From contig JAANWX010000037.1 in assembly GCA_018263575.1 (NCBI GenBank), positions 5 through 33,814 of the forward strand: 33,810 nt of DNA. The letters are read 5' to 3'. Below, one piece after another: positions 4,295 through 33,810 of the stretch. Position 1 is the first letter of the stretch. Each line of letters opens with the position of its first letter. The DNA is from Chloroflexota bacterium (GTDB lineage: Bacteria > Chloroflexota > Anaerolineae > Anaerolineales > UBA11858). The position numbers were made by a program, and so were the translations under genes. The notes under the pieces are model-generated. The model did no database searches. It was not told where the DNA came from and saw only the letters and a list, made by a program, of their open reading frames with translations.

Positions 4295-4684
4295 GAATCA
4301 GGAGATCAGGAAACCAGGAATCAGGAGATCAGGAAATCAGGAAATCAGGAAGACAGGAAAACAGGAAAACAGGAAACCAGGAAACCAGGAATCAGGAGAT
4401 CAGGAGATCAGGAAAACAGGAATCAGGAAACCAGGAATCAGGGATTAGGAGGATGCGGAACGGAAGGTGCATTGCACTCCTTGTTTTTAGGAGTGCGTTG
4501 CACCTGATCCCCCAATCCCCTCTCCCCCTGGGATGCCCAAAGGGCACAGCCTACAACCTAGGGTTGCCCACCGGGCGGGCTGCACACCGTGAGCAAAGGG
4601 AGGGCTAGGGTGAGGGCTTTGTGTTCTCAACAAAAACTTTGTGCACTTTGTGTCTCTGTGGTGAAATTATAAGAGGAGTTACCG
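4295..4684. repeat. Degenerate AGGAAATCAGG array, hairpin and C-rich tract
   Basis: Directly after the ygfK stop, 4295-4450 is a tandem array of imperfect 8-11 bp units (AGGAATC, AGGAGATC, AGGAAAACAGG), G/A-rich in the sense of ygfK. A hairpin of the GTGCAATGCAC family follows (4465-4505, listed separately), then a C-rich segment (CCCCAATCCCCTCTCCCC). The stretch ends with CTTTGTGCACTTTGTGTCTC and the AGAGGAGT ribosome site of ssnA. No gene is present. Confidence 0.85.
4465..4505. repeat. GTGCAATGCAC-family hairpin, copy 1
   Basis: The arms AGGTGCATTGCACTCCT and AGGAGTGCGTTGCACCT pair over 17 bp with one mismatch and one wobble around a TGTTTTT loop. Related hairpins occur at 6210, 13169 and 16812, always between genes. 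Confidence 0.8.
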
Positions 4685-6007
4685 ATGACAATTCGATTTG
4701 AAAACGGCACCATTGTAACTTTAGGCGAAGATAACCAAGTCCTAAAAAACAGCACCCTCGTCACCGACGGGGAAAACGTCGCCGCCATGGGCGGAGGGGC
4801 CGAGATGCGGGAACGCTACCCCGATGCGGAGGTGGTGGACTGCTCGGGCCAGGTCATCCTCCCCGGATTCATCTGCACCCACCATCACTTCTACTCCACC
4901 ATGGCCCGGGGCATGGCCATCCCCGGCGAACCGGCCTCTAATTTTGTCGAAATCCTGGAACGCTTATGGTGGAAACTTGACATGGCCCTCTCCGAGGACG
5001 ATATCGCCCCCTCGGCCCAAATTCCCCTCATCGAGTGCATTCGCAACGGCACCACCACCGTCATCGACCACCACGCCTCTCCCTCTTTCCGGGATGGCTC
5101 CTTGGACATCATCGAAGAGGCCGTCCGTGAGGCTGGTCTGCGGGCCTCCCTTTGTTACGAGGTCTCAGACCGCAACGTGCCCGGAGCCGGGATCGCCGAG
5201 AACGAGCGTTTCATTAAAAAGGTGGGGCAGGGGGATGGGCAGATTGCGGCCATGATGGGCTTGCACGCCTCCTTCACCGTTTCCGACGAGACGGTCGAAA
5301 AGTGCGTGGGCATCGCCAAAGACGCCGGGGTGGGATGTCACATCCATGTGGCGGAAGACGCCGCCGACCGGGAGGATTCCCTCGCAAAATACGGGAAACC
5401 CACCGTCAACCGCCTTCACGACCTGGGCGTGACCGGCCAGAACTCCATCTTTGTCCACTGCGTCCACGTTGACCTCTCCGAGATGGATATCCTGGCCGAT
5501 ACGGACACCATCGTCGTCCACAACCCCGAATCGAACATGAACAACGCTGTCGGCGTCACTCCCCTCCTTGAATTACTGGAAAAAGGTGTTTTGGTGGGCT
5601 TGGGCACAGACGGCATGGCCTCGGATATGCTCTCCCAGATGCGAGTGGCTTATTTGCTGCATCGGCTCGCCAACCGGGATCCGCGCGTAGCTTTTGTCGA
5701 AGCTCCCCAACTATTACTGGGGAACAATGCCGAAATCGCCCGTCGCCAGTTTGGTCTCCGCCTGGGCGAGATTGCCCCCGGCCTCCCGGCTGACCTGGCC
5801 ATTTTAGATTACCATCCTCCCACGCCCTTCAGCGAGAAAAACACCCTGGGACACCTTATTTTTGGTATGACTGACGCTAGGGTCGATACCACCGTTTGCC
5901 GGGGCGAAATTCTAATGAGGAACAAAGAAATTCTCACTCTCGACGAAGAACGCATAGCAGCCCGCTCCCGTGAGCTGGCGCCGAAGATGTGGAAGAGATT
6001 GGTCTGA
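4685..6007 (+). CDS. ssnA: SsnA-type aminohydrolase (amidohydrolase superfamily)
   Basis: The 440-residue metal-dependent hydrolase is of the cytosine deaminase/TRZ-ATZ type. Visible metal and catalytic sites are the THHHFYST triad (His66-68), HIHVAED (219-225), HCVH (258-261) and GTDGMASD (307-314, metal Asp309). The N-terminal and C-terminal beta-sandwich pieces (NGTIVTLGE; ADLAILDYHPPT) are intact. SsnA proteins accompany ygfK in purine catabolic clusters, where they are thought to hydrolyse an imidazole or formimino-type intermediate; the exact substrate is not readable here. Ribosome site AGAGGAGTT precedes the ATG. It probably belongs to one transcription unit with ygfK despite the 390-bp repeat-filled gap. 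Confidence 0.88.
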   Translation: MTIRFENGTIVTLGEDNQVLKNSTLVTDGENVAAMGGGAEMRERYPDAEVVDCSGQVILPGFICTHHHFYSTMARGMAIPGEPASNFVEILERLWWKLDMALSEDDIAPSAQIPLIECIRNGTTTVIDHHASPSFRDGSLDIIEEAVREAGLRASLCYEVSDRNVPGAGIAENERFIKKVGQGDGQIAAMMGLHASFTVSDETVEKCVGIAKDAGVGCHIHVAEDAADREDSLAKYGKPTVNRLHDLGVTGQNSIFVHCVHVDLSEMDILADTDTIVVHNPESNMNNAVGVTPLLELLEKGVLVGLGTDGMASDMLSQMRVAYLLHRLANRDPRVAFVEAPQLLLGNNAEIARRQFGLRLGEIAPGLPADLAILDYHPPTPFSEKNTLGHLIFGMTDARVDTTVCRGEILMRNKEILTLDEERIAARSRELAPKMWKRLV

Positions 6008-6205
6008 TTGGTCGGAATGGTCGAATTAGTCTGATTGGTCGAAATAGTCGAAATAGTCGAATTGGTCGAAGTTGTCTCAGTAATCTAAGTAGTCGAGGCA
6101 GATCAATCAAATTACTCAGGCTGTTCGACCACTAAGACCACTAAGACCACTCAGACCACTCAGGCCACTCAGACTACTCAGACTACTCAGACCAATTCAA
6201 CCTAT
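6008..6205. repeat. Strand-switching degenerate array (GGTCGAAATAGTCG / GACCACTCAG)
   Basis: From 6008 to about 6105, starting right after the ssnA stop, the + strand is a G-rich array of units such as TTGGTCGAA and TAGTCGAA. From about 6121 to 6205 it becomes a C-rich array of GACCACTCAGACCACT units leading to the next gene. The two halves are approximate reverse complements, so the transcript could fold back on itself over some 80 nt. Confidence 0.85.
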
Positions 6206-6209
6206 CTCC

Positions 6210-6247
6210 AGGTGCAATGCACTTTAGACTGCAAGTGCAACGCACCT
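6210..6247. repeat. GTGCAATGCAC-family hairpin, copy 2
   Basis: The arms AGGTGCAATGCACT and AGTGCAACGCACCT pair over 14 bp with two adjacent mismatches around TTAGACTGCA. It sits just before the ATG at 6266. The ATG inside it (6212) is therefore probably not the real start of the next gene. Confidence 0.75.
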
Positions 6248-6265
6248 TCGACCACTCAGACCACT

Positions 6266-6562
6266 ATGGCTACTTTCAAAAAATTCGAAGACATCCGTAG
6301 CTGGCAAAACGCTAGAATATTATCTCGGATGATCTACCAAGTCTCTAACCAAGGAGCCTTTGCAAAGGATTATCGGTTGCGGGATCAAATCCGGGGAGCT
6401 GCGGGATCAGTGATGCACAATATTGCTGAAGGCTTTGGCGCTGGTTCTGATAATGAGTTCATCCGATTTTTGGGATACGCCCGGCGCTCAGCGGCTGAGA
6501 CGCAGTCCCAGCTCTACATTGCCTTAGATCAAAACTACATTACTGAAGACCAAATTCAGTAA
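6266..6562 (+). pseudogene. Four helix bundle (23S rRNA IVP-like) protein, 3'-truncated
   Basis: I start at the ATG giving [14 protein letters not shown] rather than the ORF-track start, because the extra 18 residues come from the hairpin repeat. The family motifs are present: F-E-D-I-x-x-W near the start, [21 protein letters not shown] in the middle, and [20 protein letters not shown]. Members normally run ~115-125 residues with a last helix ending in a GFIRYL-like motif. Here the frame stops after [10 protein letters not shown], exactly where the minus-strand transposase remnant begins. I read it as a gene broken by that element. No second half is visible beyond the element. Confidence 0.75.
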
Positions 6563-7131
6563 ATCACAGAATGAGGTGGTTTGTGTGCAGGGACAGCACA
6601 AATGGCTGAATAGTCATTCTCGATTGCACGGATTAACAGCCTGCAAAAACGGTGTAAGCGCAAGCGGTTTTCATCAATACGACGAGGACCAGGAGCAAGC
6701 AAGCGAGCAAACTCCCATTTCAAAAAGACCCAAGCGTTGGTGAGGATCAGGCCCACACTCTGTAAGAAGAAACGCATGGTTGGGTTGCGGGAAGTAGTAG
6801 TGGCTCGTACTCGCCGAAGCAAGCGATAACTACATTCCACACCAAAGCGACGGCGATATTGCTGGTATACTTTGTCGGCTGACCAATCTAAAAGGATGAG
6901 GATAAACGATAACCACTTGCGGCGACGTTTCCCTGTTTTATCGGGCACCAAAGATGCTTTCATAGCAATTGTAGCCTGGGTTCCGTCAGTGAATGTATAA
7001 GAAGTTATGTAGCTTTTGCGACCACGACATAATGCCCGTGTCCCGCCGGTTTTTCCACGAATTGGATTGAGCCGCAGGCTCAACCGCATGAAATCCGAAC
7101 CCAAATCGCCAACGCGATCAACGAGACCCAT
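6556..7131 (-). pseudogene. Transposase C-terminal part, IS4/ISH3-like, N-terminally truncated
   Basis: The 191-residue frame contains VYQQYRRRFGVECSYRLLRR, the Y-x2-R-x3-E-x6-R/K signature of IS4-superfamily DDE transposases, followed by FFLQSVGLILTNAWVFLKW, which resembles ISH3-type proteins. Full proteins are ~350-400 residues, so the N-terminal catalytic Asp region is missing. An in-frame stop lies 11-12 codons upstream of the first Met. A plausible continuation (VRRYEHDNLQHLRAPLG) lies in another frame beyond 7131, hinting at a frameshift. The element is unlikely to be active. No terminal inverted repeats were found by eye. Confidence 0.7.
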
Positions 7132-7446
7132 AACCCCAACGGTGCACGCAAATGTTGTAGATTATCATGCTCATAGCGGCGTACCCCAAGGGCATGCTCC
7201 GCGATCCCCGCCGCCGTACTCCTGCGAGTATGCTTCGCGAAGGACTGCGGCTAGAGCATTGTTATCCTACTTTTCTACAGAACTCGAGTGCACCCACCCC
7301 AACCACCCCGCCTATCGTAGATAGTATAGCATAATTCTGTTCTTTGTTCGCAAATTTCCGCCCGCACTCCGCATTCCCCAATCCGCACTCCGCAATCCGC
7401 ACTCGTCACATGGCACATGCCACATGCAACATGCAACTCGCCCTTT
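7132..7446. repeat. Gene-free stretch with palindromic debris and a short-motif array
   Basis: 7160-7260 holds near-palindromic pieces (GGCATGCTCCGCGAT and GAGTATGCTTCGCGAAGG). 7350-7440 is an array of CCGCACTCCGCAATCCGCACT followed by CACATGCCACATGCAACATGC units. It abuts the stop of the minus-strand methylase-like gene. In that gene's sense the array is G-rich (GAGTGCGGATTGCGG). No gene is supported. Confidence 0.7.
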
Positions 7447-9702
7447 CTACCTCCCCATCCCCAATACCAACTGCGGTTCATCATATGTCAACGGATCCTG
7501 CTCGAAGCGTTCCGCGACCGTGTCTCTGGTCAGGCTCAGGTCGTTGGCCAGCCCCCGCAGGTGGCGGAACTTCATAAAGCCCCAATTTTCATCGAGAAGA
7601 TTGTCCAAGGGCGGGTGATAGTGCCGTTTGTGGGCTACCAGGTTGGCTCGTCCCCCCGGCAGGATGATCCATGGGTTTGGGGGCGGCTGGGGAGATTTCA
7701 GGACGATCTTGCTCAGGATGGCCGAAGCGGAGATGAAGAACGTGTACGCGGTCTCTCCGCCATCGTTCCAGGTAAAAACACGGACATTGCCAAGCGGGGC
7801 CGCCTGGTGGGGTGTGTAATTCAACCGGCGGCCAAGGTTTTGGAGCAAAGCGGCCATTTCCTTTAAGTCCTCGCGCCGGGCTGTGGGAGCGTCACCGGGC
7901 TTCAGAACCCAGTTCTCGCTGTCGGGAGACTCTTCCTGTCCATAAGAATCCAAGCAGACCTGGATCAGCTTTGCGTCTGGCGTCAGCAGGCCGGGAAAAG
8001 CCGCGTAGAGTTCCGCTTCCAAGTCCGAGCGGGAAGACCCTTCTTCGGCCAGGGATTTGATCAGAGTCATCTCTACCCGGTCAGCCAAGGTGAGGGGGCT
8101 TAACGAAAGCTCCTTGTGCCACCAGCGATCCACCTCCGGGTAGCGGAGGAAACCCTGGCGGTAGGCGAAGGTGTCTTCTAGGGACTTGGTCAAGTTTTGG
8201 TAGGTGGTCGCGCTGGGTGGGGACTCCCCACCGGGGAAAGCACCCTCAGCGTCCAGAGCGGCCAACCCGGCGGCGTGGAGGGTGAGGGTCGGGGCCGGTT
8301 CCCCCATCTCCCGCAATTGCCCATAGCCACTAGCGCGCAGAATTGAGGTGATGTCCTTGGGCGAAGTGGTCGGGGCGGGTTTTGGGCGGGGATGCCAGAG
8401 CAGTTGGGCAGAATCCCCCGCGCTGTCGAGGGCCAATCCCCCTAATGAAAGACCAGCCGAATGCGCCGCCAGCGTGACCGCGCTCAAGAAATCTTTGTCT
8501 CCGTGGGTGAGGCCCAGGCAGGGAGTAGCGGGCTTCAGGTGGGGCGTCAGTCTGCTCAGAGCGCTGTGGAGGGCGCGGGCGTACCAGGCGTTATCGAAGC
8601 TGGGCAGGCGCATGATATTGCGGAGGGGAGCGGCCGCTTTTTGCCCCCACAGCCACCCAGACCAAAGCGCGGAGAATGTCCAGTAGGCCTGGTTGGGTTG
8701 AGGGAAAGCCATCAGGACGGCCCCAATTTTCTCGTCGAGTTGAGGGGCCAGGTCGCGGATGGGGCCGCCAAACACGCTCACCCCTCCCTCCGGGGGCGGC
8801 TCCGGCCAGGGGACGAGGGGGACGGAATCTCCCCCGGCAGCCCACGCCTCTACGCCTTCCTCCAACGCAAACCAGACATTGTTTTCACGATATTGTTCGG
8901 GGAGCGCGAGATGGGTGAAGGGGTTTGGGTTGGGGGGATGTTCCCACAGGCTGGCGGCCCGGTAGCAGGCGTTCAAAATCAGGGCGGCCAAATGGGAATC
9001 CTTGGGCGGCGCGAGCGCCATTCCGCTGAATTGGTTGATGATGGTGAAAAGGGCGTAGACGGCGCGGGCGGTATAAACGGTGAGGGCGTCCTCCGCGTGG
9101 GAGCGGATGGGGTCACCGGGCGGGGCCACCCGGGTCAGGGCGCGGGCTTGGTAGAGGGGATTGTTTTGGTACTGGGCAGCTTTTTGGGTGTCGGCTGGGG
9201 TGGTGGGATATTCCCCGGAGTTTCCACAATGGGAGCAGCGGCAGAGCTTGGCGTGCGGGGTGGGGGATTCCCTCTTCCACAGGAATGCCTGGGCGGGGAT
9301 GGTTTTGCCGCAGTGGGGACACTCTGTGGCATAAAGCGAGAGGATGTGCGGCTCCAGCCGTTCTTTCCCTTTGAAGGTGGAGGCTAACGTCGCCAGGGCG
9401 GATTGGAAGTCAGCGTGTTGGGGTGGTTGGGCGTGTTGGCGGAGGAGGAAGCGGGCGATGGGGTTGTTGGCCGCCACGACTACCCTGTGACCGCTCCGGG
9501 CGGCCTCGACGCTGAGGTGGGGGACGTTCCCCAGCGGGGCGAGCACCCACCCTCGCGGGGGTGGGGAACGTTCGAGCCAGGTGGAGATAATTTTCGAGGG
9601 GGCGCGGGGCTGGATTCTCCCCAGTGGTGGCGTTTTTTCGGTGGGCTGCCCTCTGATGTAGGGGAAGGGCTTCAAGGGTATTCTCCTCATCCACGAATAC
9701 AC
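7447..9702 (-). CDS. Degenerate Zn-ribbon DNA-methylase-like protein (COG1743/DUF1156-like)
   Basis: The 751-residue protein follows the plan of large adenine-specific methylases with a Zn-ribbon. A motif-I-like LAPLGNVPHLSVEAARSGHRV is at 54-74, followed by ANNPIARFLL. The Zn-ribbon is CPHC (128-131) and CRCSHC (154-159). FGGPIRDLAPQLDEKIGAVLMAFPQPNQAYW (split at 311-341) falls where the family has GDARDL...DAVVTDPPY, and LGLTHGDKDFLSAV resembles the later FTHKD segment. The SAM motif (DPFAGxG) reads APLGNV and the catalytic DPPY reads AFPQP, so methylation looks lost. The start is GTG at 9702; an in-frame ATG at 9690 is an alternative, and neither has a strong ribosome site. Family assignment is by motif recall and moderate in confidence. 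No nuclease or helicase partner is adjacent. Confidence 0.6.
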   Translation of the reverse strand: MYSWMRRIPLKPFPYIRGQPTEKTPPLGRIQPRAPSKIISTWLERSPPPRGWVLAPLGNVPHLSVEAARSGHRVVVAANNPIARFLLRQHAQPPQHADFQSALATLASTFKGKERLEPHILSLYATECPHCGKTIPAQAFLWKRESPTPHAKLCRCSHCGNSGEYPTTPADTQKAAQYQNNPLYQARALTRVAPPGDPIRSHAEDALTVYTARAVYALFTIINQFSGMALAPPKDSHLAALILNACYRAASLWEHPPNPNPFTHLALPEQYRENNVWFALEEGVEAWAAGGDSVPLVPWPEPPPEGGVSVFGGPIRDLAPQLDEKIGAVLMAFPQPNQAYWTFSALWSGWLWGQKAAAPLRNIMRLPSFDNAWYARALHSALSRLTPHLKPATPCLGLTHGDKDFLSAVTLAAHSAGLSLGGLALDSAGDSAQLLWHPRPKPAPTTSPKDITSILRASGYGQLREMGEPAPTLTLHAAGLAALDAEGAFPGGESPPSATTYQNLTKSLEDTFAYRQGFLRYPEVDRWWHKELSLSPLTLADRVEMTLIKSLAEEGSSRSDLEAELYAAFPGLLTPDAKLIQVCLDSYGQEESPDSENWVLKPGDAPTARREDLKEMAALLQNLGRRLNYTPHQAAPLGNVRVFTWNDGGETAYTFFISASAILSKIVLKSPQPPPNPWIILPGGRANLVAHKRHYHPPLDNLLDENWGFMKFRHLRGLANDLSLTRDTVAERFEQDPLTYDEPQLVLGMGR

Positions 9703-9717
9703 GAAACTTTGTAATGC

Positions 9718-9726
9718 TGATATAAT
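9718..9726 (+). promoter_or_regulatory. Extended -10 promoter for the 9759-10483 gene pair
   Basis: TGATATAAT fits the TGnTATAAT consensus. The start site would lie near 9733, about 26 nt ahead of the ATG at 9759. It sits in the 56-bp divergent spacer shared with the minus-strand methylase-like gene. Confidence 0.5.
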
Positions 9727-9758
9727 AACCGTAAGCAGAAAGATGTAAAAGGTAATAG

Positions 9759-10100
9759 ATGAAAAATACTGGTAAACGCTGGACAGTTTACGATCGTGGC
9801 GGTAATCCTATTTATCTTACTCAAGAAAGATGGGAGCATATCGTCGATGCAAATAATCACCCGGAGATGTTGGCTTATGAGGAATATCTCCGACTTACAC
9901 TCAAACAAGCTCGTAGACGACAAGAGGCACTAAATCCGCGTAAATATCGTTATGCCCATCAGTTCCATGATTTGCCTGATGACGTGAATCACATTGTTGT
10001 AATCGTCTTGTTTGGTTATGATGTTGATGAGGATGGCCGAACTATCCCCAATAATTACGTAGCTACAGCCTTTTTCAAGCATATTTGGTTAAAAGGGTAA
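9759..10100 (+). CDS. Putative small nuclease toxin (BECR-fold-like), partner of a DUF2283 protein
   Basis: The 113-residue protein has the pattern PIYLTQERWEHIVD, HPEMLAYEEYLRLTL, a basic KYRYAHQF segment, VNHIVVIVLFG and a C-terminal NNYVATAFF strand. The helical start followed by beta strands rich in conserved His, Arg, Tyr and Thr resembles barnase/EndoU/colicin/RelE-like RNase folds. I infer this from the pattern and do not recognise a named family with certainty. The downstream gene begins 5 bp after its stop and encodes a DUF2283 protein, a common neighbour of such genes. Composition is AT-rich. A toxin-antitoxin unit is likely, with the active residues unproven. Confidence 0.55.
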   Translation: MKNTGKRWTVYDRGGNPIYLTQERWEHIVDANNHPEMLAYEEYLRLTLKQARRRQEALNPRKYRYAHQFHDLPDDVNHIVVIVLFGYDVDEDGRTIPNNYVATAFFKHIWLKG

Positions 10101-10105
10101 TCTCT

Positions 10106-10483
10106 ATGAAAAAAGAACCAATTTATTCTTACGATAAAGAAGTAGACATTTTATATATCTCATTTTCTCCTGGGGAAAAGGCGTCTACCGCTGTTGAGTT
10201 GAACGACAATATATTATTGCGATTTAACAAAGCCGAAAAACGCGCTGTTGGCCTTACACTGATGGATTTTTCGACCCTGATCCAATTAACCAATTTAGGC
10301 CCCCGTAATTTCCCATTGACAGGTCTGAATGACTTAGAGCCAGAATGGCAAGGAATTGTATTAGAAATTATCAAAAGTTCGCCAGTGAATCAGATTTTGA
10401 AAATTTCAGCCTATACGCCGTCTCTGGCAGAAACAATGCCGATTACTTTTGTAGAAAAACCACCAATCCCGATAGCTGCCTAA
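10106..10483 (+). CDS. DUF2283 family protein (probable antitoxin)
   Basis: I use the ATG at 10106, five bases after the preceding stop, instead of the overlapping upstream start. The protein is 125 residues. Residues 1-50 carry the DUF2283 signature: YSYDKEVDILYISF, then a negatively charged loop, LNDNILLRFN and a VGLTLMDFS segment. The C-terminal 60 residues (ILKISAYTPSLAETMPITFV) extend past the core domain and could bind the partner protein. DUF2283 proteins frequently form two-gene units with small toxins. Function is inferred from neighbour and family only. Confidence 0.65.
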   Translation: MKKEPIYSYDKEVDILYISFSPGEKASTAVELNDNILLRFNKAEKRAVGLTLMDFSTLIQLTNLGPRNFPLTGLNDLEPEWQGIVLEIIKSSPVNQILKISAYTPSLAETMPITFVEKPPIPIAA

Positions 10484-11268: not shown

Positions 11269-11385
11269 TGTTACCTTTGGGGGTTGGTATACTGGGAAAT
11301 GGGTAGGTTGGGGATTGGTATACTGGGAAATTGGTAGGTTGGGGATTGGTATACTGGGAAACTGGGAGATTGGGGGATGAAGAAA
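11269..11385. repeat. Array of GGTATACTGGGAAATTGGTAGGTTGG units
   Basis: About three ~35-bp units built from ATTGGTATACTGGGAAA and GGTAGGTTGGGG lie immediately before the hydrolase start. Read in the gene's sense they are C-rich (CCAATCCCCAACC). Confidence 0.85.
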
Positions 11386-11394
11386 TAAGCGGAT

Positions 11395-11478: not shown

Positions 11479-11504
11479 AAATCTCCTCTGTTTCTCATCA
11501 CCTT

Positions 11505-11572
11505 GCTACCCAAAATATCCAATACCCAATACCCAATATCCAAAACCTGACATCCAACATCCACCCTCCAAT
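11505..11572. repeat. Array of CCAATACCCAATATCCAA units after pyk
   Basis: The + strand reads CCAATACCCAATACCCAAT and CATCCAACATCCACC. In the sense of pyk, whose stop it touches, it is G/T-rich (GGATATTGGGTATTGGG). Confidence 0.8.
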
Positions 11573-13206: not shown

Positions 13207-13210
13207 TTTC

Positions 13211-13239
13211 TCGTCACTCATCACTCATCACGTTTCACT
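13211..13239. repeat. Short ACTCATCACTCATCAC array after the CoA-transferase
   Basis: In gene sense this reads GTGATGAGTGATGAGTGACG immediately after the stop codon. The same motif recurs at 17264-17312 and 20801-20840. Confidence 0.75.
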
Positions 13240-14535: not shown

Positions 14536-14536
14536 G

Positions 14537-17263: not shown

Positions 17264-17312
17264 ATTTACTCATTACTCATCACTCATCACTCATCACTCA
17301 TCACTCCTCATG
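17264..17312. repeat. CATCACTCATCACT array at the DUF389 gene end
   Basis: Five to six 8-bp units ACTCATC. In gene sense (GATGAGTGATGAGT) the array begins inside the last codons (…MMHEE) and supplies the TGA stop codon itself. Confidence 0.8.
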
Positions 17313-19505
17313 CATCATCCCCAAATACTCCCCCTCCACCCAGCCCTCCAAATGCTGCTCCAAAACGGAGATGTGGTACCACTCCGTACCCTCGAGGGTG
17401 ACCGGGTCTTCTAGGACAACCACCTGAGTCCCGTCGTCGATTCTGCCCACTTCCAATCCGCCGGGGGAATAATACACCCGCAGCCCCCAGTAATTTACGT
17501 TCACTACTTGTAGTACCCAGGGAGTATTGGTAGGCGTGAGCGTGGCGGTGGGCGTGTTGGTGGAGGTGGGAGTTTGGGTGGGAGAAGGGGTTACAGTCGG
17601 GGTAAGGGTATGGGTGGGTGTGGGCGTGGAGGTGGGCTGGTTGGTGGAGGTGGGGAGGGGGGTGTTGGTCGGTGTGGGCGGAATAAAGGCGCGTAATTGC
17701 GCCGAGGGAATGGTGCTGACCGTAAGCGCAACAGGACGTTGAAGATGACCTGCTATATCCTCCTGTAAAGCGCGGGCCTTCGAATGGCTAATGGTGCTGG
17801 GGCCTCGGAGGATGATATTGATTTGCAGCGTTTCTCCTGTCTGATAACCGTTTATCAATTTCCAAGTGTCTAATTCGGCCCCCTCGAATTCGTTTACGCC
17901 AAGCTCCACGGCCTCTTGGATGTCTTCGTTTAGTTGGGTTGTTCGGGTAGATTGGTAGGTCAAAACGGCCAGGGGAATAGTGACCATGACCAATAAGATG
18001 ACAATGCCGGTCAGTCCCCGGCGCAAGGTAATGTTTTTCTCGGCATTCTGGTACCGTGGACGAAACCCCAGCCAGATGAAGACTAAAGCCCCGGCGGCAA
18101 TTATGGCGATCAGGTTGGTGATGAAGAGCAAGCCCGCTCCACGGGTGAGGTCGAACGCGCCCATGACGAGAGTGAGGCCGACGTTGGCTAGGGGCGGGGT
18201 CAGGGCTGCCGCTACGGCCACGCCAGCAAAGGCGTTAGATACGTTGCTCCGGCTGATGGAGTAGGCGGCCGTCGTGCCCGCGATGAGGGCGATGCCCAAG
18301 TCCAATAAAGAAGGTTGTGAAAAAGCCAGCATCTCATGGGTAACTTGTGGATTAGGGGCAATAAGGCCTATCACGCTTCCCATAATAATCGCTAAAACGA
18401 CTCCTCGTAGCATCATCATCAACGCCCGCCAAAAGTTCCGCGATTCACCCAGGACGATGTTCAAGGACATCCCCAAAATAGAGGCCATAAGCGGGGAGAC
18501 CATCATGGCCCCGACGATGATCTCTGGGCTGTCCAAGAGAAACCCCAGAGCGGCAAAAAGTGCTCCAAGGGCCAGCGTGAACGAATAATCCACATTATGT
18601 CGAATCCCTCTTTGGATTGATTGGTAGGCTTTTGTTTGTTCACCAACGCTGACATTGGGTAGAAAATTGAACAAGCGCACCCACAGCTTTTGACGCGCGC
18701 TGCGTAAGAAGGGGATTTTGCGCCGGAGGATGATAGTCGAGATAGGGGACTGATTAAAAATAGCCTTAGGAATGTTCCCAAAGACGAATCGGTTGACAAT
18801 ATTTCTCTCGGCACTGGCCCCAACGATGAGGAGGTTGTAGCCTCTTCCAGCTTCTCGAAGGATGCCTTCGACAGGGCTTGTCGCTACGATCACTTTGTGG
18901 GTGGTTTCGATGTTGGGAAAGCTCTTGTCTATTTCCTTTAATCGTTCGCGCCCCGCGTTGAGTTCTGCCTTTGCGTGATGTGAGGCCACATAGAGGAGCG
19001 TGATTTTTGCACCCGGATTCATTTGGTGGGCAATTTTCACCGCGTGGATGGCGTTTGGGCCTCCCGCGACGGGTATGAGAATGTTTTGAGGTTGGCGGGT
19101 ATAGTTTCTCTGGGAAATGATGATGTCATTCGAGGCCTCTTGAAGCACCGCGTCTAAGGTTTGGCTAAGGATATAACGTCCTCTGGATTCTTTTCCCCCC
19201 CACCCTAGCACCACCACCTCAGCTTTGGTTTTTTGGGTTTCTTGCAGGATGATGCGTTCAGCGAGCTGTTGGTGGTGAATGATGATCTCTACGGGGACGT
19301 CACTCTGCTCTTGATACGCGCTTAGCCACGTCCATTTTTGAGATTCAGCATCCGGATTCCCGGCCACAACGCACACAGAGCCGCCCTTTCCACGGGCCAG
19401 GTCACAGGCCAAGTCCACTAATGGCTTATCTTGTTCATCTCTTACCGCGACGAGAATGGTTGTTTTCTTGGTACCTTTTTGGTCTTTCAGGTTAGGAGTT
19501 TGCAT
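17301..19505 (-). CDS. USP-USP-DUF389 membrane protein with C-terminal SH3-like domain
   Basis: This is a 734-residue fusion. Residues 14-132 and 140-262 are two universal-stress-protein domains; the second keeps the VGASAERNIVNRFVFG nucleotide-binding pattern (228-243). Residues ~300-520 are a DUF389 integral membrane domain with six or so hydrophobic segments and the signatures GAMMVSPLMA (332-341) and AVAAALTPPLANVG (430-443). A Thr/Pro linker spans ~610-662. Residues 663-728 form an SH3b-like domain (LRVYYSPGG, GWVEGEYL). The linker and SH3 part are expected outside the cell, the USP domains inside. It starts 9 bp after the ClC gene stop with AGGAGGAG, so they form an operon, consistent with an ion- or stress-responsive transport unit. 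Transport substrate is unknown. Confidence 0.85.
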   Translation of the reverse strand: MQTPNLKDQKGTKKTTILVAVRDEQDKPLVDLACDLARGKGGSVCVVAGNPDAESQKWTWLSAYQEQSDVPVEIIIHHQQLAERIILQETQKTKAEVVVLGWGGKESRGRYILSQTLDAVLQEASNDIIISQRNYTRQPQNILIPVAGGPNAIHAVKIAHQMNPGAKITLLYVASHHAKAELNAGRERLKEIDKSFPNIETTHKVIVATSPVEGILREAGRGYNLLIVGASAERNIVNRFVFGNIPKAIFNQSPISTIILRRKIPFLRSARQKLWVRLFNFLPNVSVGEQTKAYQSIQRGIRHNVDYSFTLALGALFAALGFLLDSPEIIVGAMMVSPLMASILGMSLNIVLGESRNFWRALMMMLRGVVLAIIMGSVIGLIAPNPQVTHEMLAFSQPSLLDLGIALIAGTTAAYSISRSNVSNAFAGVAVAAALTPPLANVGLTLVMGAFDLTRGAGLLFITNLIAIIAAGALVFIWLGFRPRYQNAEKNITLRRGLTGIVILLVMVTIPLAVLTYQSTRTTQLNEDIQEAVELGVNEFEGAELDTWKLINGYQTGETLQINIILRGPSTISHSKARALQEDIAGHLQRPVALTVSTIPSAQLRAFIPPTPTNTPLPTSTNQPTSTPTPTHTLTPTVTPSPTQTPTSTNTPTATLTPTNTPWVLQVVNVNYWGLRVYYSPGGLEVGRIDDGTQVVVLEDPVTLEGTEWYHISVLEQHLEGWVEGEYLGMMHEE

Positions 19506-25009: not shown

Positions 25010-25013
25010 AGGT

Positions 25014-25243: not shown

Positions 25244-25289
25244 AAGTGGGCACATTTTACCAAAGGGGAGGTGATTGGACAAGGCGGGG

Positions 25290-26399: not shown

Positions 26400-26458
26400 G
26401 GTAGTGGTATTATATCTGAGATAACCTACAAGCGAAGTAAAAATATAGGAGTGAAATC

Positions 26459-26990: not shown

Positions 26991-27010
26991 CATCTCTCTG
27001 TGAGAGATGA
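26990..27010. repeat. Perfect 9-bp hairpin at a mobile-element junction
   Basis: TCATCTCTC-TGT-GAGAGATGA. It lies between the broken methylase and the stop codon of the minus-strand transposase at 27020, so it may be a transposase terminator or an element end. Confidence 0.6.
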
Positions 27011-27019
27011 CAGAGATAT

Positions 27020-27880
27020 TTACGGTTTTTCTAGGTTAACGGTGGAGAAAAAATCGGTGGCGCCCAAGTCTTGAAGGTTGATGCCAGCACGTTGGACGGC
27101 ATTGGTACCCTGATTACAGCCACGGCTCTTGACGTCGAAATTCTCCATCAAAGCCACGCCAGCGAAGAAGTTCTGACCAGTCACCAGTCGGAAAGATTTA
27201 GCGATAAGACTAAAAGGCTTGAAGCGACTATTGGTACTTTCAAGAGCATTAGTCGTTTTGGGAGTATCTTCGGTGACAGCCAGGTAGAGCAAAGTATTGA
27301 TGGTTTCACCATGTTTTTTGATGAAGCGTTCCAATCGCTTTGTCAAACGCTGAACGCTGGAAGTTTGCAGGATTTGGTCTGGATCACGAAGTTGAGAGAC
27401 AACTCCTTCTAGCATGAGCACACAGACACTCTCGTACCCAGGCGAAAAAGCCTTGAGGGCCGTACCCAAGATAGGGCGCAAGAACTTTCGTAATAACCTT
27501 TTTTTGAGTCTTTTCTGCTTGCGGCGTTGTTTGTAGGAAAGAGATTTGGGTGTATCCAAGGTAATCTCCTTGACGGCATCGTCGAATAAGCGAATGATTT
27601 GGCGTATCAAATGCACCAAATCACGCAGGTGTTCAAGGTTCAAGCCAGCTCGTTCCAGATGTTTGCCATAGGTAACTGCCAGGTCGGTCAAAAAGAAATC
27701 AGGTTGATAGTGTTCTCCAACGACGTCTTGTAACTGATCTGGAATATTCTGCGCCTTGCGCTTGAGCGTGCGCACACTGCGAATCAGACCAGATTCACAG
27801 ATGATGACCCCTAAACTATAAGCTCGTTTGCCTAATTTGGGGAAGGTCTCATCAAATAATAAAAAACGAGCAGACTTTTG
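27020..27880 (-). pseudogene. DDE-type transposase, N-terminally truncated
   Basis: About 286 residues of a transposase remain. Candidate catalytic residues are Asp in LLFDETFPK, Asp in FFLTDLAVTYGK and Glu in TTNALESTNSRFK, with a long Lys/Arg-rich helical insertion between the last two. The family is not clear to me; the long insert argues against IS3 or IS4 types. The first ~37 residues of the track ORF (to about SKTSKNCRQ) come from a U32 peptidase gene read in another frame, so the true N-terminus is missing. It ends NLQDLGATDFFSTVN. No terminal repeats were identified. Confidence 0.65.
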
Positions 27881-27881
27881 A

Positions 27882-28040
27882 CGACAGTTTTTCGATGTCT
27901 TTGATAGAGTTCCCGGCAGCTTGTCTGGCACCAAATTGCCTTGCACCAATATACACCGCGTCAGCCCCGGCATTTATTGCCAGCTTACCGGATTCTAAGT
28001 TTTTTGCCGGAGCGAGGAGTTCAATTTGTTTTTTAGGTAT
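27882..28040 (-). pseudogene. U32 peptidase family N-terminal stub
   Basis: On the minus strand, frame ATA-CCT-AAA reads KKQIELLAPAKNLESGKLAI then NAGADAVYIGARQFGAR, the unmistakable start of U32-family (YegQ/TrhP-like) proteins. No ATG, GTG or TTG start is available before an in-frame TGA near 28062, so the start is lost or ATA. The gene is cut after ~53 codons by the transposase junction. It is missing from the ORF track because its frame is short. Confidence 0.75.
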
Positions 28041-28094
28041 AGGAAAGGACGAGAAGAATCAAAAAAACGGCGCCAGGGCCGTTTTCAGGAAGAG

Positions 28095-28166
28095 TGGCGA
28101 GGGAGAGAATCGAACTCTCGGCCAAGGGCTTATGAGTCCCCTGCTCTACCGCTGAGCTACCTCGCC
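28095..28166 (-). tRNA. tRNA-Met (CAT)
   Basis: A 72-nt cloverleaf: acceptor GGCGAGG/CCTCGCC with discriminator A, D-stem GCTC/GAGC, anticodon loop CTCATAA (anticodon CAT), T-arm GAGAG-TTCGATT-CTCTC. The anticodon stem GGGGA/GCCCT has an A31-G39 mismatch. The acceptor is fully paired at 1-72, so it is not a formyl-initiator. It could be elongator Met or a lysidine-modified Ile tRNA. Confidence 0.9.
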
Positions 28167-28221
28167 ATGACGGGCATTATCTTACTATGGAGGCTGGAAT
28201 TTGTCAACATTTTTTTCTCCT

Positions 28222-28273
28222 AGGTCAGTGTTCAGTATCCAACCTCTAGCCTCCAACTTCCAACATCCAACCC
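28222..28273. repeat. CCAACTTCCAACATCCAACC array after dprA
   Basis: In the sense of dprA this is G-rich (GGTTGGATGTTGGAAGTTGG) and touches the stop codon. Confidence 0.75.
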
Positions 28274-29176
28274 CTAAAACATCGCCATCTGTTCGGGTTC
28301 TTGGGGAAATCGATGTGTCCTGATCCGGGCCGCCAGGTCGTCTAAATCCAGCGTGACGGGGGAGAGGGATTCCGCTGCGCCCTCGGCGATGAGGGCGTCG
28401 TTGCCGGGGCTGCCGGGGACGGCCAGGAGCAGACGCCCCTGGCGTTGGGCGCGTTTGGCTGTGTCTGTGCTGCCGCTCTCCACCTGGGCCTCCACCACGA
28501 TCACCCCTTTGGCCAGCCCGCTCGTGATCCGGTCCCGCGCCATGAGCTGGGGGCCTCTCACCCGCGTATCGGGGCGCAGCTCAGATAGCACCGCGCCCCG
28601 TTGGGTGATGGTCTCCGCCAGGGGGAGGTTACGCTTGGGGTGGATGGCCTTCAACCCCGACCCGAGCACGGCCAGCGTCCGGCCCTCGGCGGATTCCAGT
28701 GCCCCCCGGTGGGCGGCGGTGTCGATCCCTATCGCCAACCCGCTCACCACGGTCAGGCCCCGTTCCGCCATCTCTTTGCCCAGGGCGCGGGCCAATTTCA
28801 GGCTTTTGGGCGTGGCTTTGCGCGTTCCCACAATGGCCACAGCAGCTTCATCCCCCGGAAGAATCTCCCCCCTCACGAAAAGCAGGGGCGGGGCAGAGCT
28901 GATCTGGCGAAGGTTGACCGGGTACTCCTCCTCATCCCAGCTTATTAGCCGGATACCCTCCTTCGTATAGTCATGTATTTGGACTGCGAGTTCATCCCAG
29001 TCCAGGGACTGCATCTGGGCCACCGTTTTCTCTGTGACGCGCGGAATCTCCACCAACGCCTCCGGGGAGGCCTCGAAAATGCTCGTAACATCCCCAAAGC
29101 GGGCCAGCAGTTTACCCGTGGTCACCCCGCCAACGCCGGAGATGGTGCTCAGTGCGAACCAGTGTAATTTACTCAT
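28274..29176 (-). CDS. dprA: DNA-processing protein DprA
   Basis: The 300-residue protein loads RecA on incoming single-stranded DNA during transformation. An HhH/SAM-like start (ISGVGGVTTGKLLARFGD) precedes the Rossmann-like core with AIVGTRKATPKS (~114-125), VVSGLAIGIDTAAHRGAL (~143-160), LAVLGSGLKAIHPKRN and the GSTDTAKRAQRQGRLLLAVPG segment. The optional C-terminal winged helix of longer DprA proteins is absent. A C-rich array in gene sense fills its upstream side. Confidence 0.93.
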   Translation of the reverse strand: MSKLHWFALSTISGVGGVTTGKLLARFGDVTSIFEASPEALVEIPRVTEKTVAQMQSLDWDELAVQIHDYTKEGIRLISWDEEEYPVNLRQISSAPPLLFVRGEILPGDEAAVAIVGTRKATPKSLKLARALGKEMAERGLTVVSGLAIGIDTAAHRGALESAEGRTLAVLGSGLKAIHPKRNLPLAETITQRGAVLSELRPDTRVRGPQLMARDRITSGLAKGVIVVEAQVESGSTDTAKRAQRQGRLLLAVPGSPGNDALIAEGAAESLSPVTLDLDDLAARIRTHRFPQEPEQMAMF

Positions 29177-29235
29177 AGAACCTCGTGTAGTGGTAGACTG
29201 GTGATATTGGTAGGTTGGTAAATTGGTGTGAGGGT
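29177..29235. repeat. GGTAGGTTGGTAAATTGGT array upstream of dprA
   Basis: Short units TTGGTAGGT and TTGGTAAAT precede dprA; in gene sense ACCAATTTACCAACC. The motif family is the same as at 29689-29845. Confidence 0.7.
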
Positions 29236-29241
29236 GTTGGG

Positions 29242-29688
29242 TCAGTCAGGGGAGGGTAGTTTGATATTAACATCGTATTGAGATATGTCGTCGTGGATGA
29301 CCTTATCTCCGTATTCCTTGTTTCCGCGTTGCTGGTTACGGACATACCGAATGAATCCGTTGAGTGAACGCAATGCGCTGTGGCAAAGCTCTCTTTGTTC
29401 TTGTATCTTATCTTGAGTATATTGAAGTTGGTCACAGGCAATGAAAGCGCTCAGGGTCTCATTTAGCGATCCACGGGCAATGTAATAAAAGCGCAAACTT
29501 TCCAAGTAGTGATAGCGACCATAACCCTCAGCGATGTTTAGCACCACGCTGATAGAGGCCCGCCGCAATTGGTCTGCAAGATTATATTTTTCTTCAGCAG
29601 GCAAACGTTTCACTACGTCATAGGCCTCTTTCAAAACTTGTGATGCCAACTGATAGCATTCTAGATCCTCAAAACCACGATGTGCCAT
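29242..29688 (-). CDS. Four helix bundle protein (23S rRNA IVP-like)
   Basis: The 148-residue helical protein has family marks FEDLECYQLASQV at the start, YNLADQLRRASISVVLNIAEGYGR (split around 35-60) and a last helix ending LNGFIRYVRNQ near residue 110-118. It then has a ~30-residue hydrophilic tail not typical of the family. These proteins were first seen encoded in intervening sequences of 23S rRNA but occur widely as single genes of unknown role. It is intact, unlike its relative at 6266. Start MAHRGFEDLE; AAGGAG lies close to the ATG. Confidence 0.85.
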   Translation of the reverse strand: MAHRGFEDLECYQLASQVLKEAYDVVKRLPAEEKYNLADQLRRASISVVLNIAEGYGRYHYLESLRFYYIARGSLNETLSAFIACDQLQYTQDKIQEQRELCHSALRSLNGFIRYVRNQQRGNKEYGDKVIHDDISQYDVNIKLPSPD

Positions 29689-30101
29689 TGCTAACTCCTT
29701 GTTGTTAGTAGATTGGTGATATTGGTGTGCTGGCAGATTGGTGATTTTGGAAGGTTGGTAAATTGGTGATATTGGTGTGCTGGTAGATTGGTAGTATTGG
29801 TAGGTTGGTAAACTGGTTATATTGGTATATTAGTATATTGGTTGCTCTCACCAATCTCCCAGTTTCCCAATATACCGGTTTTACCAGTGTCCCAGTCTCC
29901 CAGTCTCCAATATACCAGTTTTACCAGTTTCCCAATATCCCAATCCCCAGTCTCCCAATATCCCAATCCCCAGTTTCCCAATCTCCCAGTCTCCCAGTCT
30001 CCAATATACCAGTTTTACCAGTTTCCCAATATCCCAATCCCCAGTCTCCCAGTCACCCAATCTCCCAATCTCCCAATCTCCCAGTCACCCAATCTACCAA
30101 C
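29689..30101. repeat. Large strand-switching array (ATTGGT… / CCCAATATACCAG…)
   Basis: 29700-29845 on the + strand is an ATTGGTGATATTGGTGTGCTGG-type array of T/G-rich units. From ~29846 to 30101 the + strand becomes CTCCCAGTTTCCCAATATACC-type C-rich units. The C-rich half contains longer near-identical blocks, for example CCAATATACCAGTTTTACCA occurring twice (near 29907 and 30001). The halves are approximate reverse complements. No gene is supported; ORF-track proteins here are repeat translations. Confidence 0.9.
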
Positions 30102-33100
30102 CTACCCCGCCGAATGTATCGTCCGCGTACAAGTCAAAACACAGATGCTTTTCGCGCCCGCCCGGCGGAGGACGCGGGTGACCTCCTCTAAAGTGGCCCC
30201 GGAGTCGTAGAGGTCGTCAATGACCAGGAGGTTTTTTTCACGCAGTTGACCTTGCACGGCAAAAGCTCCTTTTACGTTGGCGCGTTTTTGGGCCAGGGTG
30301 TTGAATTCTTTTTGGGGCGCGGTTTGGCGGGTTTTGACCAGGACGGGCCGGTAGGCGGTTTCTAATTTGGCGGTCATGGCCTTGGAGAAAGCGGACACGG
30401 GGTCAAAGTCCCGCGCTGTGGAAGGGGGAACGGGGAGGACGGCCTCCACTTTGCTCAGGAGGGGATTCTCTTGGCACACGGCCAGGGCACGTTCGACCAG
30501 CGGTTCTAAAGCACTTTGGTCGCCCTGATATTTCAAGCGATACGCCAATTCCCCGACCGGCGTGCGGCCCCAATCCTCGCCGCTGAAACGGCTGTGGAAC
30601 CCCAACGCCCACCCGGCTTCCCAGGGGCCGGGCAGCGGCCTGGGGTGGGGACGGGCGAGATAGGCGGAGACAGCATCCTCCTCTTCACCCTGCTCAAGGG
30701 GAGTCGCCAGGTCCTCATCTGTAGGGCGATTTACCAAATCGCCTTCACCACGCTCGAGGGGGATCGTCAGATCCCCCGGGGTGCGAGACTTAGACAGCAA
30801 TTTCTTCAGGGCAACGCGGGCAGACTCTTGCGTATAGCCACGTTCGTTCGAGTCTGCGGCGATTGTTTCCAATAATTCGCGGGGGCGGGGATCACCAATT
30901 TTCCCTAAAGCCTTGACCGTGTATTGTCGTACCTGGGGCTTTTTTTCATGGGCCAGCAAGCCCATCAGCGGCTCAACCGCTCGCGGGTCGCTAATTTTAC
31001 CCAGGGCGGAGGCAGCCAGGCGGCGGACATTCCCGTTAGAACTTTCAAGGGCGGCTACCAGCTCTGGCACGGCGTGAGGGGAGCCGCTTTCTCCCAACTG
31101 GTAGACCCGTTCACTTTGTTTTTTAACCGGGACAGTGTCCAGGTCTAAAGTCTTCCCCTTTTCCGGACCGGGGATGACCTTGTTGCCGTCCAGAGCCAAA
31201 ATACCTTCCTCGATCAAGTGGTCGATGACGCTGGTCACTTCCCCTCGGCCATAGGTGTCCAGGTAGCCGAAAAATGGATCTCCCTGATACTCTTCAACTC
31301 GTTGCGAGTCGGAGCCAACCAGCACTTTGGCCACGCCGCTCCGGGGCAGTTCGCCGGGCATCTCGTCCACGCAGGCGATGATAATGTCAGTGATGTTTTG
31401 GGATGACCGAGAATGGGATCCGCGGGATCTGTCGATCCCGCTTGAGCTTGGGAGAGGGGCCTCTGCGCTGTGCTCGTGGGAGAACGCATCTGCACTGTGC
31501 TTGTGGGGGGACGCATCTGTACTACGCTCGAGGGGGGACGTCTCACCACGCTCGAGGGGGAACGCCAGTTCCCCCGGATGGGGATCATCTGTCTCTCCAC
31601 CATCCCATATTGCCAGCACGCACCTAATCTCCCCAAACGAAATACTTTCCGGCAAGCGGTCTTTGATGGGCCTCAGATAGGTGATTTCGCCCATACTCTC
31701 CAAAACCGCGTGAATTTGGGCTACAACTTCACCAGTCACCACCTGGTCAAGAGCCACCTTTCCTTCCTCGATCAGCTCGGCTGCGTGCTTGTAAATCGTG
31801 TTCACGGTCAGGCCGCGGTGGGCGGCAATTTCTTGGGGATTAAGGCCCCGATCAAAGAGTTGGGCTGTGTATCCCACCGTTCCCCCGGCCTTGCGTTTGG
31901 CGCGGCGGTGGCGGATCTTTTGGGCGTTGGGGAAGTCGAGGGGGATGGTGGCCTTAGCAGCGATGGCGTCTTTGCCCCGGGGCGTTAGGTGCAGGGAGGG
32001 GTATTCTCCCCCGATGACCTTGAAGTAACCCCGCTGGATGAGTTGTCGGATCAAATTCTTGAGCTCTTTTTGCCGGAAATCTTCTAGGCGGCCATAATAG
32101 ATGTTCTTCGTATAGCCAGCATTACGCATTGACTTGGCCTCTGAACCAGCCAGCATTTTTGCCAGTTTCCCTTGCCCCACCTCCCACCCCAGGCGGCGGA
32201 CAGCGTCCAAAATCACTAGCGGGACACGGGCCTCTTCGGTGGCCAGGGGTTGGGCGGAGGTTTCGGGGAGGGGCTGCTCTTGGGACAGGCAGTTGTCGCA
32301 GCAGCGGGCCGCTTGGGGCGGGGTGGTGTCGCCGAAATGGTCAAGGATCACTTCCCGGCGGCAGGTATCACCCTCCGCGTAGGCAATCATCTTTTTCAGT
32401 TGAGCTTCCTTGCGCTGGCGGTGGGCCTCCGTTTTCTTCATAATCGCGGCGATGGCCTCCCCCTTCCAAACGCCGGGGCGGAGTAACATGCGTGTGCCTT
32501 CATCCCCCAAATGTTCCAGTGCCCCAGCTTCTTCCAGGTGCGAGAGGATGACGTTGATTTTCACCTCGTGCAACGCGGTGGCCCGGGAGAGATACTCGTT
32601 CGAGAGCCACAGGGTCTCCCGTCCGCTGCTGGTGATGGTTTCGTAAATTTGGCGCAATTCAGAGGTGGTGGGAGCGCTGTTCTCGATGAACCATTCCTGG
32701 AGGGCGCGGTCTTCGGGGGCGTAGAGCAGCGTCACCTGGGCCGGTTCTCCATCCCGTCCCGCGCGGCCGGCCTGTTGGTAGTAGGCCTCCAGTGAGCTGG
32801 GGATGGCGTAGTGGATCACTTGCCGCACGTCGGGCCGGTCGATGCCCATCCCAAAAGCGTTGGTCGAGGCAATGGCGTTCAAATCTCCGCACTGAAAGGC
32901 ATTTTGGATGCGGGTCCGTTCTTCTCCTGGCAGCCCGGCGTGGTAAAACTCGACCGGAATCCGGGCCACCTCCCGCAAAAAATCGGCCACTTCTTCGGCC
33001 TCACGCCGGGTGCCGGTATACACAATGGCGGCTTGGTCACGGGGCTGGTTTTCGGGGGAGAACAAATCCCGCAGGGCACGCAGCTTTTCCGCCAGGCTGT

Positions 33101-33752
33101 AGGTGTAGCGCACCATAAAGGCCAGGTTGGGGCGGTTGAACCCGGTCACGATGCGGCGCATGTGAGGGAGTTCCAGCAGGCGGGCGATATCCCCCTGGAC
33201 GGTGGGCGTGGCCGTGGCGGTGAGGGCGGCGGTGAGCGGTTCCCCCATCTCCCGGCGGGCTTCGGCAATGTTCAGGTAGTCGGGGCGGAAGTCGTGTCCC
33301 CACTCGGAGAGGCAGTGGGCCTCATCCACCGCGAGAAGACCAATCTCCAGGTCTTGGATGGCACGCTGGAAGGGGACGCTGCGCAGCCGTTCGGGGGCGA
33401 CGTAAACCAGGCGGTATTCCCCCCGGGTCATGGCCTGAAGGCGTTGGCTTTGTTCGGCGGAGGAAAGGGTGCTGTTGATGTAGGTGGCGGGGATGCTGTG
33501 GGCGGTGAGGTGATCGACCTGGTCTTTCATGAGGGCGATGAGGGGGGAGATGACCAGGGCCGGCCCGGGGCGGTGGAGGGCGGTGAGCTGGTAAATGAGG
33601 GATTTCCCGGCCCCGGTGGGCATGACCGCCAGGGTATCTTCCCCGTCGAGCAGGCTCTGCACCGCCTTTTCCTGGCCTGGCCGGAACGCTCGGAACCCGA
33701 AGTTGGCCCGGAGGGTGGTGGTCAGGTCGTCGGGGGGAGTGGGGGTGGTCAT
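30102..33752 (-). CDS. recQ: RecQ helicase fused to winged-helix, HEAT and phosphoribosyltransferase domains
   Basis: The protein has 1216 residues; classic RecQ has ~600. Order: SF2 helicase (Walker A MPTGAGKS 44-51, DEAH 143-146, arginine-finger motif QQAGRAGRDG 325-334); RecQ zinc site Cys464 plus CCDNC (484-488); RQC winged helix (~510-595); helicase-C HTH (LFDRGLNPQEIAAHRGLTVNT); low-complexity insert 728-780; a second RQC-like wing (788-860); two to three HEAT repeats (885-985); a second insert (~990-1045); and a C-terminal PRTase/ComF-like domain with the PRPP loop VIDDLYDSGATLEEV (1177-1191). It likely unwinds DNA in repair or recombination; the PRTase may bind a nucleotide or PRPP ligand. 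The frame is uninterrupted, so the fusion looks genuine. Confidence 0.9.
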   Translation of the reverse strand: MTTPTPPDDLTTTLRANFGFRAFRPGQEKAVQSLLDGEDTLAVMPTGAGKSLIYQLTALHRPGPALVISPLIALMKDQVDHLTAHSIPATYINSTLSSAEQSQRLQAMTRGEYRLVYVAPERLRSVPFQRAIQDLEIGLLAVDEAHCLSEWGHDFRPDYLNIAEARREMGEPLTAALTATATPTVQGDIARLLELPHMRRIVTGFNRPNLAFMVRYTYSLAEKLRALRDLFSPENQPRDQAAIVYTGTRREAEEVADFLREVARIPVEFYHAGLPGEERTRIQNAFQCGDLNAIASTNAFGMGIDRPDVRQVIHYAIPSSLEAYYQQAGRAGRDGEPAQVTLLYAPEDRALQEWFIENSAPTTSELRQIYETITSSGRETLWLSNEYLSRATALHEVKINVILSHLEEAGALEHLGDEGTRMLLRPGVWKGEAIAAIMKKTEAHRQRKEAQLKKMIAYAEGDTCRREVILDHFGDTTPPQAARCCDNCLSQEQPLPETSAQPLATEEARVPLVILDAVRRLGWEVGQGKLAKMLAGSEAKSMRNAGYTKNIYYGRLEDFRQKELKNLIRQLIQRGYFKVIGGEYPSLHLTPRGKDAIAAKATIPLDFPNAQKIRHRRAKRKAGGTVGYTAQLFDRGLNPQEIAAHRGLTVNTIYKHAAELIEEGKVALDQVVTGEVVAQIHAVLESMGEITYLRPIKDRLPESISFGEIRCVLAIWDGGETDDPHPGELAFPLERGETSPLERSTDASPHKHSADAFSHEHSAEAPLPSSSGIDRSRGSHSRSSQNITDIIIACVDEMPGELPRSGVAKVLVGSDSQRVEEYQGDPFFGYLDTYGRGEVTSVIDHLIEEGILALDGNKVIPGPEKGKTLDLDTVPVKKQSERVYQLGESGSPHAVPELVAALESSNGNVRRLAASALGKISDPRAVEPLMGLLAHEKKPQVRQYTVKALGKIGDPRPRELLETIAADSNERGYTQESARVALKKLLSKSRTPGDLTIPLERGEGDLVNRPTDEDLATPLEQGEEEDAVSAYLARPHPRPLPGPWEAGWALGFHSRFSGEDWGRTPVGELAYRLKYQGDQSALEPLVERALAVCQENPLLSKVEAVLPVPPSTARDFDPVSAFSKAMTAKLETAYRPVLVKTRQTAPQKEFNTLAQKRANVKGAFAVQGQLREKNLLVIDDLYDSGATLEEVTRVLRRAGAKSICVLTCTRTIHSAG
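30690..30790. repeat. In-frame palindromic insertion in recQ, copy A
   Basis: Contains GGCGATTT-ACC-AAATCGCC (30725-30743) and GGGGGATC-GTCA-GATCCCCC (30758-30777) preceded by CACGCTCGA, plus a weaker copy CTGCTCAAGGGGAGTCGCC at ~30688. It encodes the insert TIPLERGEG…DLATPLEQGE between the HEAT and PRTase regions. Confidence 0.75.
31440..31580. repeat. In-frame tandem/palindromic insertion in recQ, copy B
   Basis: About four ~27-bp units (GTGCTCGTGGGAGAACGCAT, GTGCTTGTGGGGGGACGCAT, ACGCTCGAGGGGGGACGTC…) end in GGGGGAAC-GCCA-GTTCCCCC (31556-31575), preceded by CACGCTCGA as in copy A. It encodes LAFPLERGETSPLERS…KHSADAFSHEHSAE without breaking the frame. Confidence 0.8.
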
Positions 33753-33810
33753 GGGGAGTGGGGGAGCTAGGGTGCTAGGGAGCTGGGGAGCTGGGGAGCG
33801 GTGGGGCTAG
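33753..33810. repeat. GGGAGCTGGGGAGCTAGGG array upstream of recQ
   Basis: Short units GGGAGCTGG and GGGTGCTAG reach the window edge. In the sense of recQ this leader is C-rich (AGCTCCCCAGCTCCC). Confidence 0.75.

Follow-up and report, generated by a model that had tools for sequence, protein, structure and literature searches.

Short tandem-repeat arrays of an Anaerolineae genome mostly carry their G-rich strand outward at gene edges

The intergenic regions of a 33,810-nucleotide stretch of Chloroflexota (class Anaerolineae) DNA—contig JAANWX010000037.1 of assembly GCA_018263575.1, here called the window (contig C53 of the host genome)—hold arrays of short tandem repeats that lie against the starts and stops of genes such as ygfK, pyruvate kinase, alanine dehydrogenase, dprA, and a recQ-like helicase gene (Table 1). 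Read in the sense of the neighbouring gene, arrays past stops are G-rich (G-type) and arrays before starts are C-rich (C-type), for genes on both strands, as an earlier note made from the sequence alone had proposed; of 14 arrays in the window, each judged by the gene edge closest to it, 13 agree. The exception, at 29191-29227, is equidistant from two genes, and its orientation suits the start of dprA, not the stop of the other neighbour. The two halves of the rule are algebraically one statement: the G-rich strand points outward from the gene, whether the edge is a start or a stop.

A lone array always fits whichever of its left and right neighbours is chosen, so only assignment to the nearest edge, or the order in which a region's opposite arrays occur, tests the rule. 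Arrays were found with Tandem Repeats Finder (TRF) and split by G/C polarity, and genes were called with a purpose-written Markov-model finder; the window count covers intergenic arrays with a TRF score of at least 30 and an absolute GC skew of at least 0.3. The genome sample comprises 1,029,205 bp, in 50 contigs, of a host genome of 2.71 Mb in 121 contigs. The first batch of contigs was partly picked for motif matches; this choice influences how dense the arrays are, but the way they are oriented to genes should be independent of it. Two relatives were sampled, G009 (same genus, 124 kb) and G014 (another genus of the same family, 233 kb), together with E. coli and G025 as controls—these last are array-poor samples with too few arrays for polarity.

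The edge polarity is a real, strong, and genome-wide regularity. Among all arrays of the genome sample 156 of 194 are concordant, and the agreement lies close to genes: within 60 bp of an edge it is 128/147 (p = 5e-21), made up of 58/64 at starts and 70/83 at stops, and beyond 60 bp it is 28/47, near chance. Stricter genes and weaker arrays give 155/175 and 50/97 for the same two distance classes, with 35 contigs mostly concordant and 2 mostly discordant. The claim that every clear array obeys is too strong for the genome as a whole: it stands for about 87-90% of arrays near edges, and gives way to chance level farther off. The skew check that the earlier note had suggested for related genomes also associates orientation with gene side, with 13/16 arrays concordant within 60 bp in G009 and 9/10 in G014. 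Motif counts made without a skew threshold agree over the same distance for YTGGKNRA (44/47), GAGTRAT (41/46), and CAGGRAA (12/12); for the rarer TTGGARG (6/9) and GTGGCA (3/5) families the counts are too few to judge and fall short of significance. By region type, a first pass found 113/144 arrays concordant in co-directional, 20/23 in convergent, and 22/26 in divergent regions. Where one region holds both polarities, G precedes C in 33 cases, the order C-G-C occurs once, and plain C-G never. Array density is 1.38/kb in intergenic DNA vs 0.12/kb in coding DNA.

Because the polarity is outward at both gene ends and in every type of region, the rule needs nothing more than the position of a gene edge. 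The argument that microsatellites arising at random would be blind to gene direction loses its force here, since identical outward polarity at starts and stops requires no such knowledge. The two sides of a gene present transcribed strands of opposite type, which tells against transcription-coupled repeat formation, another suggestion made from the window.

The arrays are members of a few dispersed, lineage-specific families of 7-9 bp units (TTGGTnnA/TGGGAnA, GAGTRAT, CAGGAAA, and others), with periods of 7, 8, 9, and multiples of these. It had been thought that each array uses its own motif; instead the same families recur at hundreds of sites, with 159 matches to the ATTGGT pattern and 229 to GAGTRAT in the host genome. 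The GAGTRAT pattern has 137 matches in G009, 6 in G001, and 0 in the 18 further genomes of the family that were searched. The array past ygfK is kept, with the same motif, in the sister genome G009 and is absent in G001, G002, G007, and co234_bin11; the YgfK protein of the window is 79% identical to a protein of Chloroflexota bacterium CSMAG_882 and 65% identical to one from an Anaerolineae metagenome-assembled genome, which makes an uncultured member of the Anaerolineae the most likely host.

The polarity does not reach equally far at the two edges: its range is about 19 bp at stops and about 83 bp at starts, and a model with two ranges is preferred to one with a single shared range (likelihood ratio 13.2, 2 df). 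A comparison of the two edges in the 30-100 bp bins alone (14/18 vs 5/13, p = 0.06) is only suggestive. Unequal decay at the two edges favours separate causes. The two strands of the arrays differ sharply in the triplets that they offer: per 100 nt, the G strand has 7.6 stop and 10.3 start triplets and the C strand 1.6 and 0.9. A stop codon, or a triplet one change from it, accounts for 46% of triplets on the G strand and 23% on the C strand. On the start side, many C-type arrays come within 15 bp of the start codon, and 4 of the 34 measured reach at least 6 nt into the gene. When start-side arrays are flipped in silico, the region around the start goes from a mean folding energy of -6.3 kcal/mol to one of -21.1 kcal/mol, and the five arrays that are naturally discordant there average about -19 kcal/mol. 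On the stop side, 29 of 63 abutting concordant arrays pass through the stop codon, and flipping these 29 in silico moves the median stop from 3 to 30 codons past the array start. Several stop codons are visible variants of the repeat unit (for example ...GGGGTAG followed directly by ATTGGG)—the repeats rewrite gene ends, and many stop codons fall inside a repeat unit. Array-free DNA of the host genome, G014, G025, and E. coli has a weak skew of the same sign near gene edges, over similar distances, and the arrays may exaggerate this ordinary preference of gene ends.

The best explanation, to which we give a probability of about 0.6, is that translation filters the orientation of arrays locally at gene edges; the separate ranges at starts and stops and the flipped-sequence counterfactuals favour such ordinary translation constraints. 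In this lineage of Anaerolineae, repeat families would spread through the DNA between genes and come to lie hard against gene ends, where their orientation would be sorted edge by edge by translation, not imposed by a directional machine; selection, we infer, is the cause of the polarity. Upstream of a start, the sense strand would have to be C-type, which offers almost no start codons and little folding, while a reversed array would burden the translation start with decoy start codons and stable structure, over a range of about 80 bp. None of the stop codons TAA, TAG, and TGA contains a C. At stops, where arrays often overrun the coding end, only the G/A/T-rich strand would quickly yield a stop codon, and a C-type array would lengthen the protein by tens of codons, over a range of about 20 bp. 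Together the two filters would leave the G-rich strand outward at either gene end. A further candidate, in-frame backup stops, was rejected, the frames being even (69, 66, and 61).

Several observations weigh against translational filtering. On the stop side, 21 of 25 arrays whose C strand has equal or more stops are still concordant; so are 9/9 of the CAGGRAA family and 19 of 21 arrays that begin 5-15 bp past an existing stop; the one-step proximity of the G strand to stop triplets softens the objection that these arrays gain no stop advantage but does not remove it. On the start side, a Shine-Dalgarno sequence combined with a start codon is gained in only 8 of 58 flipped arrays, and the folding penalty is partly trivial, as some arrays extend into coding sequence with which a flipped copy then self-pairs. 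The G and C arms of one region also have more motif in common than swapped arms do (p = 0.008), a resemblance that is not predicted by edge selection and that hints at inverted copying within such regions.

In a rival, mutational account, a DNA process would start or lengthen arrays in the outward direction at gene edges with a preference for the G strand, either by outward extension of 3' ends or by an inverted copy of one arm making the other, and the polarity would not be selected at all. The sameness of the polarity at starts and stops and across region types fits such a directional birth, as do the G-then-C order, the motif resemblance between arms, and the pairing of arms within a region slightly above that of swapped arms (p = 0.04). 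A single outward process predicts symmetry, whereas the start and stop ranges are unequal; moreover, arrays more than 60 bp from an edge are near chance, and arrays overlap stops but seldom starts. We consider this account unlikely, and it is somewhat less likely again that a DNA process with the G strand leading writes the polarity at birth, giving unrelated motifs one rule in at least three phyla. A function of nucleic-acid structure, whether through G-quadruplexes or through paired G and C arms acting as two-way terminators or insulators, is improbable. TGGGAnA arrays could form quadruplexes, as similar repeats of Xanthomonas and Nostoc do in vitro (PMC4692102), and both arms are present in 34 of 148 array regions; however, most regions have a single arm, the pairing advantage over swapped arms is marginal, and near-edge arrays without four GG runs (62 of the 147) are just as concordant, at 55/62. 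Since motifs that cannot form quadruplexes obey the rule, the quadruplex reading is insufficient and the quadruplex is ruled out as sole cause. A messenger RNA panhandle between the arrays at the 5' and 3' ends of a gene was likewise rejected, their likeness being no greater than that of random arrays (0.205 vs 0.18, p = 0.29).

It is also worth asking whether the rule is produced by the analysis itself, through free choice of neighbour, through ORF (open reading frame) ends that are defined by stops and so swallow C-type arrays, or through seeding by local base composition. Under free choice any lone array fits, the C strand is poor in stop triplets, and background DNA is weakly skewed in the same direction; yet concordance is 87% even by nearest edge, and arrays lying over 3' ends inside ORFs are G-type in 27 cases vs 4 C-type, so that there is no hidden pool of C-type arrays and the stop-definition artefact is ruled out. 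At 5-15 bp before starts, 35% of skewed background 8-mers have G outward vs 18 of 19 arrays, which rules out compositional seeding for starts. Taken as a whole, an artefact is quite improbable. Lower still we place the idea that C-rich arrays reading inward might act as Rho-loading sites that would halt transcripts entering a gene from either side. At both edges the strand that reads inward is rich in C and poor in G, with periods of 7-9 nt, but many C-type arrays are 15 bp or less from the start and so probably lie within the gene's own leader, and stop-side polarity fades over about 20 bp, which is short for a Rho-loading site.

Polarity of this kind has been described before. Rehm et al. 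(2015; PMC4692102) reported heptamers, GGGAATC in Xanthomonas and GGGGA(C/T)T in Nostoc/Anabaena, that occur within 50 bp upstream of ORFs in antisense or within 50 bp past stops in sense, whatever the orientation of the ORF; G-quadruplexes were considered and the role was left open. The arrays described here resemble them in being mostly intergenic, near ORFs, and placed with the G strand antisense before starts and sense past stops. They differ in that those repeats are one G-rich, quadruplex-forming motif per lineage, while the Anaerolineae arrays belong to several families, many without quadruplex potential and with no single motif of four G runs; in addition, unequal ranges at starts and stops are measured here, unlike in that study. 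The edge polarity is thus mostly known in kind, with one repeat each in Xanthomonas and Nostoc as precedents. The present work carries it into a new phylum and across unrelated motifs, the additions being a repertoire of several motifs, concordant families that are not quadruplex-forming, and the distance structure. That the same rule holds in a third phylum, in several unrelated motifs including non-quadruplex ones, makes quadruplexes unlikely as the common cause, and the evidence points toward translation-linked filtering of orientation.

Two further systems can be compared. MacGregor (2015; PMC4679880) described TAACTGA direct repeats in marine Beggiatoaceae, Cyanobacteria, and some Bacteroidetes, and suggested a translational regulator. 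Those repeats share with the present arrays a heptamer placed right before start codons regardless of gene function, but they are a single fixed motif found mostly at starts; the motifs here differ, and TAACTGA is not among the consensus units of the window arrays. The archaeal Borg elements (PMC9879509) also have fast-evolving tandem repeats in intergenic regions, and in ORFs as well; the part of that source drawn on here describes perfect, A-biased units on extrachromosomal elements and reports no gene-edge polarity. No report of the pattern in Chloroflexi was found in the open-licence literature.

Table 1. Repeat arrays of the window with their positions and adjoining gene edges.
Array	Position	Strand	Setting
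AATCAGGA	4295..4450	+	Immediately 3' of ygfK stop; G-rich in gene sense; TAG stop abuts first unit
TTGGTCGA (9-mer)	6008..6070	+	Past stop of amidohydrolase (ssnA-like) gene; begins within last codons
GACCACTCA (9-mer)	6127..6194	+	C-type; upstream of 23S-IVP-like gene
CCGCACT, then CACATGC	7362..7437	-	G-type read past stop of minus-strand gene 7447-9702
TTGGGGATTGG	11277..11378	-	Before start of minus-strand alpha/beta hydrolase gene; C-type in gene sense
AATACCC	11514..11571	-	G-type; past stop of pyruvate kinase gene
CTCATCA (GAGTRAT family)	13210..13231	-	Past stop of acetyl-CoA hydrolase/transferase gene
CAGGGAAA	15651..15713	-	Before start of alanine dehydrogenase gene
ACTCATC (GAGTRAT family)	17268..17310	-	Overruns stop of DUF389 gene
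ATCCAAC	28237..28273	-	Past stop of dprA
TTGGTAA	29191..29227		Between two minus-strand genes, 14 bp from both; unassignable
TTGGTAGA	29703..29844	-	Before start of 23S-IVP-like gene 29242-29688
CCCAGTCT	29845..30100	-	Past stop of recQ-like gene 30102-33752
GGGAGCTA	33762..33799	-	Before recQ-like start; at window end, outside nearest-edge table

Within the window, the array upstream of the first 23S-IVP-like gene shares its period and a TGGTC core with the array that faces it at 6008, and the two abutting arrays between the second such gene and the recQ-like gene form a G-then-C pair. Both of these genes, at 6212-6562 (+) and 29242-29688 (-), encode four-helix proteins of the 23S rRNA intervening-sequence family (PF05635) and have arrays flanking or near them; the family has 6 copies in the host genome and 10 in G009. 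A palindromic element, AGGTGCAWTGCACT...AGTGCGTTGCACCT, adjoins arrays at 4465-4505 and at about 6212-6250, and after ygfK in G009 (L174) it occurs in three repeats together with array units. As a general partner of arrays, the palindromic AGGTGCA...TGCACCT element was rejected, with only 2 paired copies in the 1.03 Mb sample.

Two proteins of the window have uncommon architectures. The product of 17301-19505 joins universal-stress-protein domains to a DUF389 membrane protein that follows them, and it also has a Thr/Pro-rich linker and an extension at the C-terminus. In the product of the recQ-like gene, a RecQ-like helicase carries RQC and HTH_40 domains; HEAT repeats come next, and the C-terminus is phosphoribosyltransferase-like—an unusual fusion.

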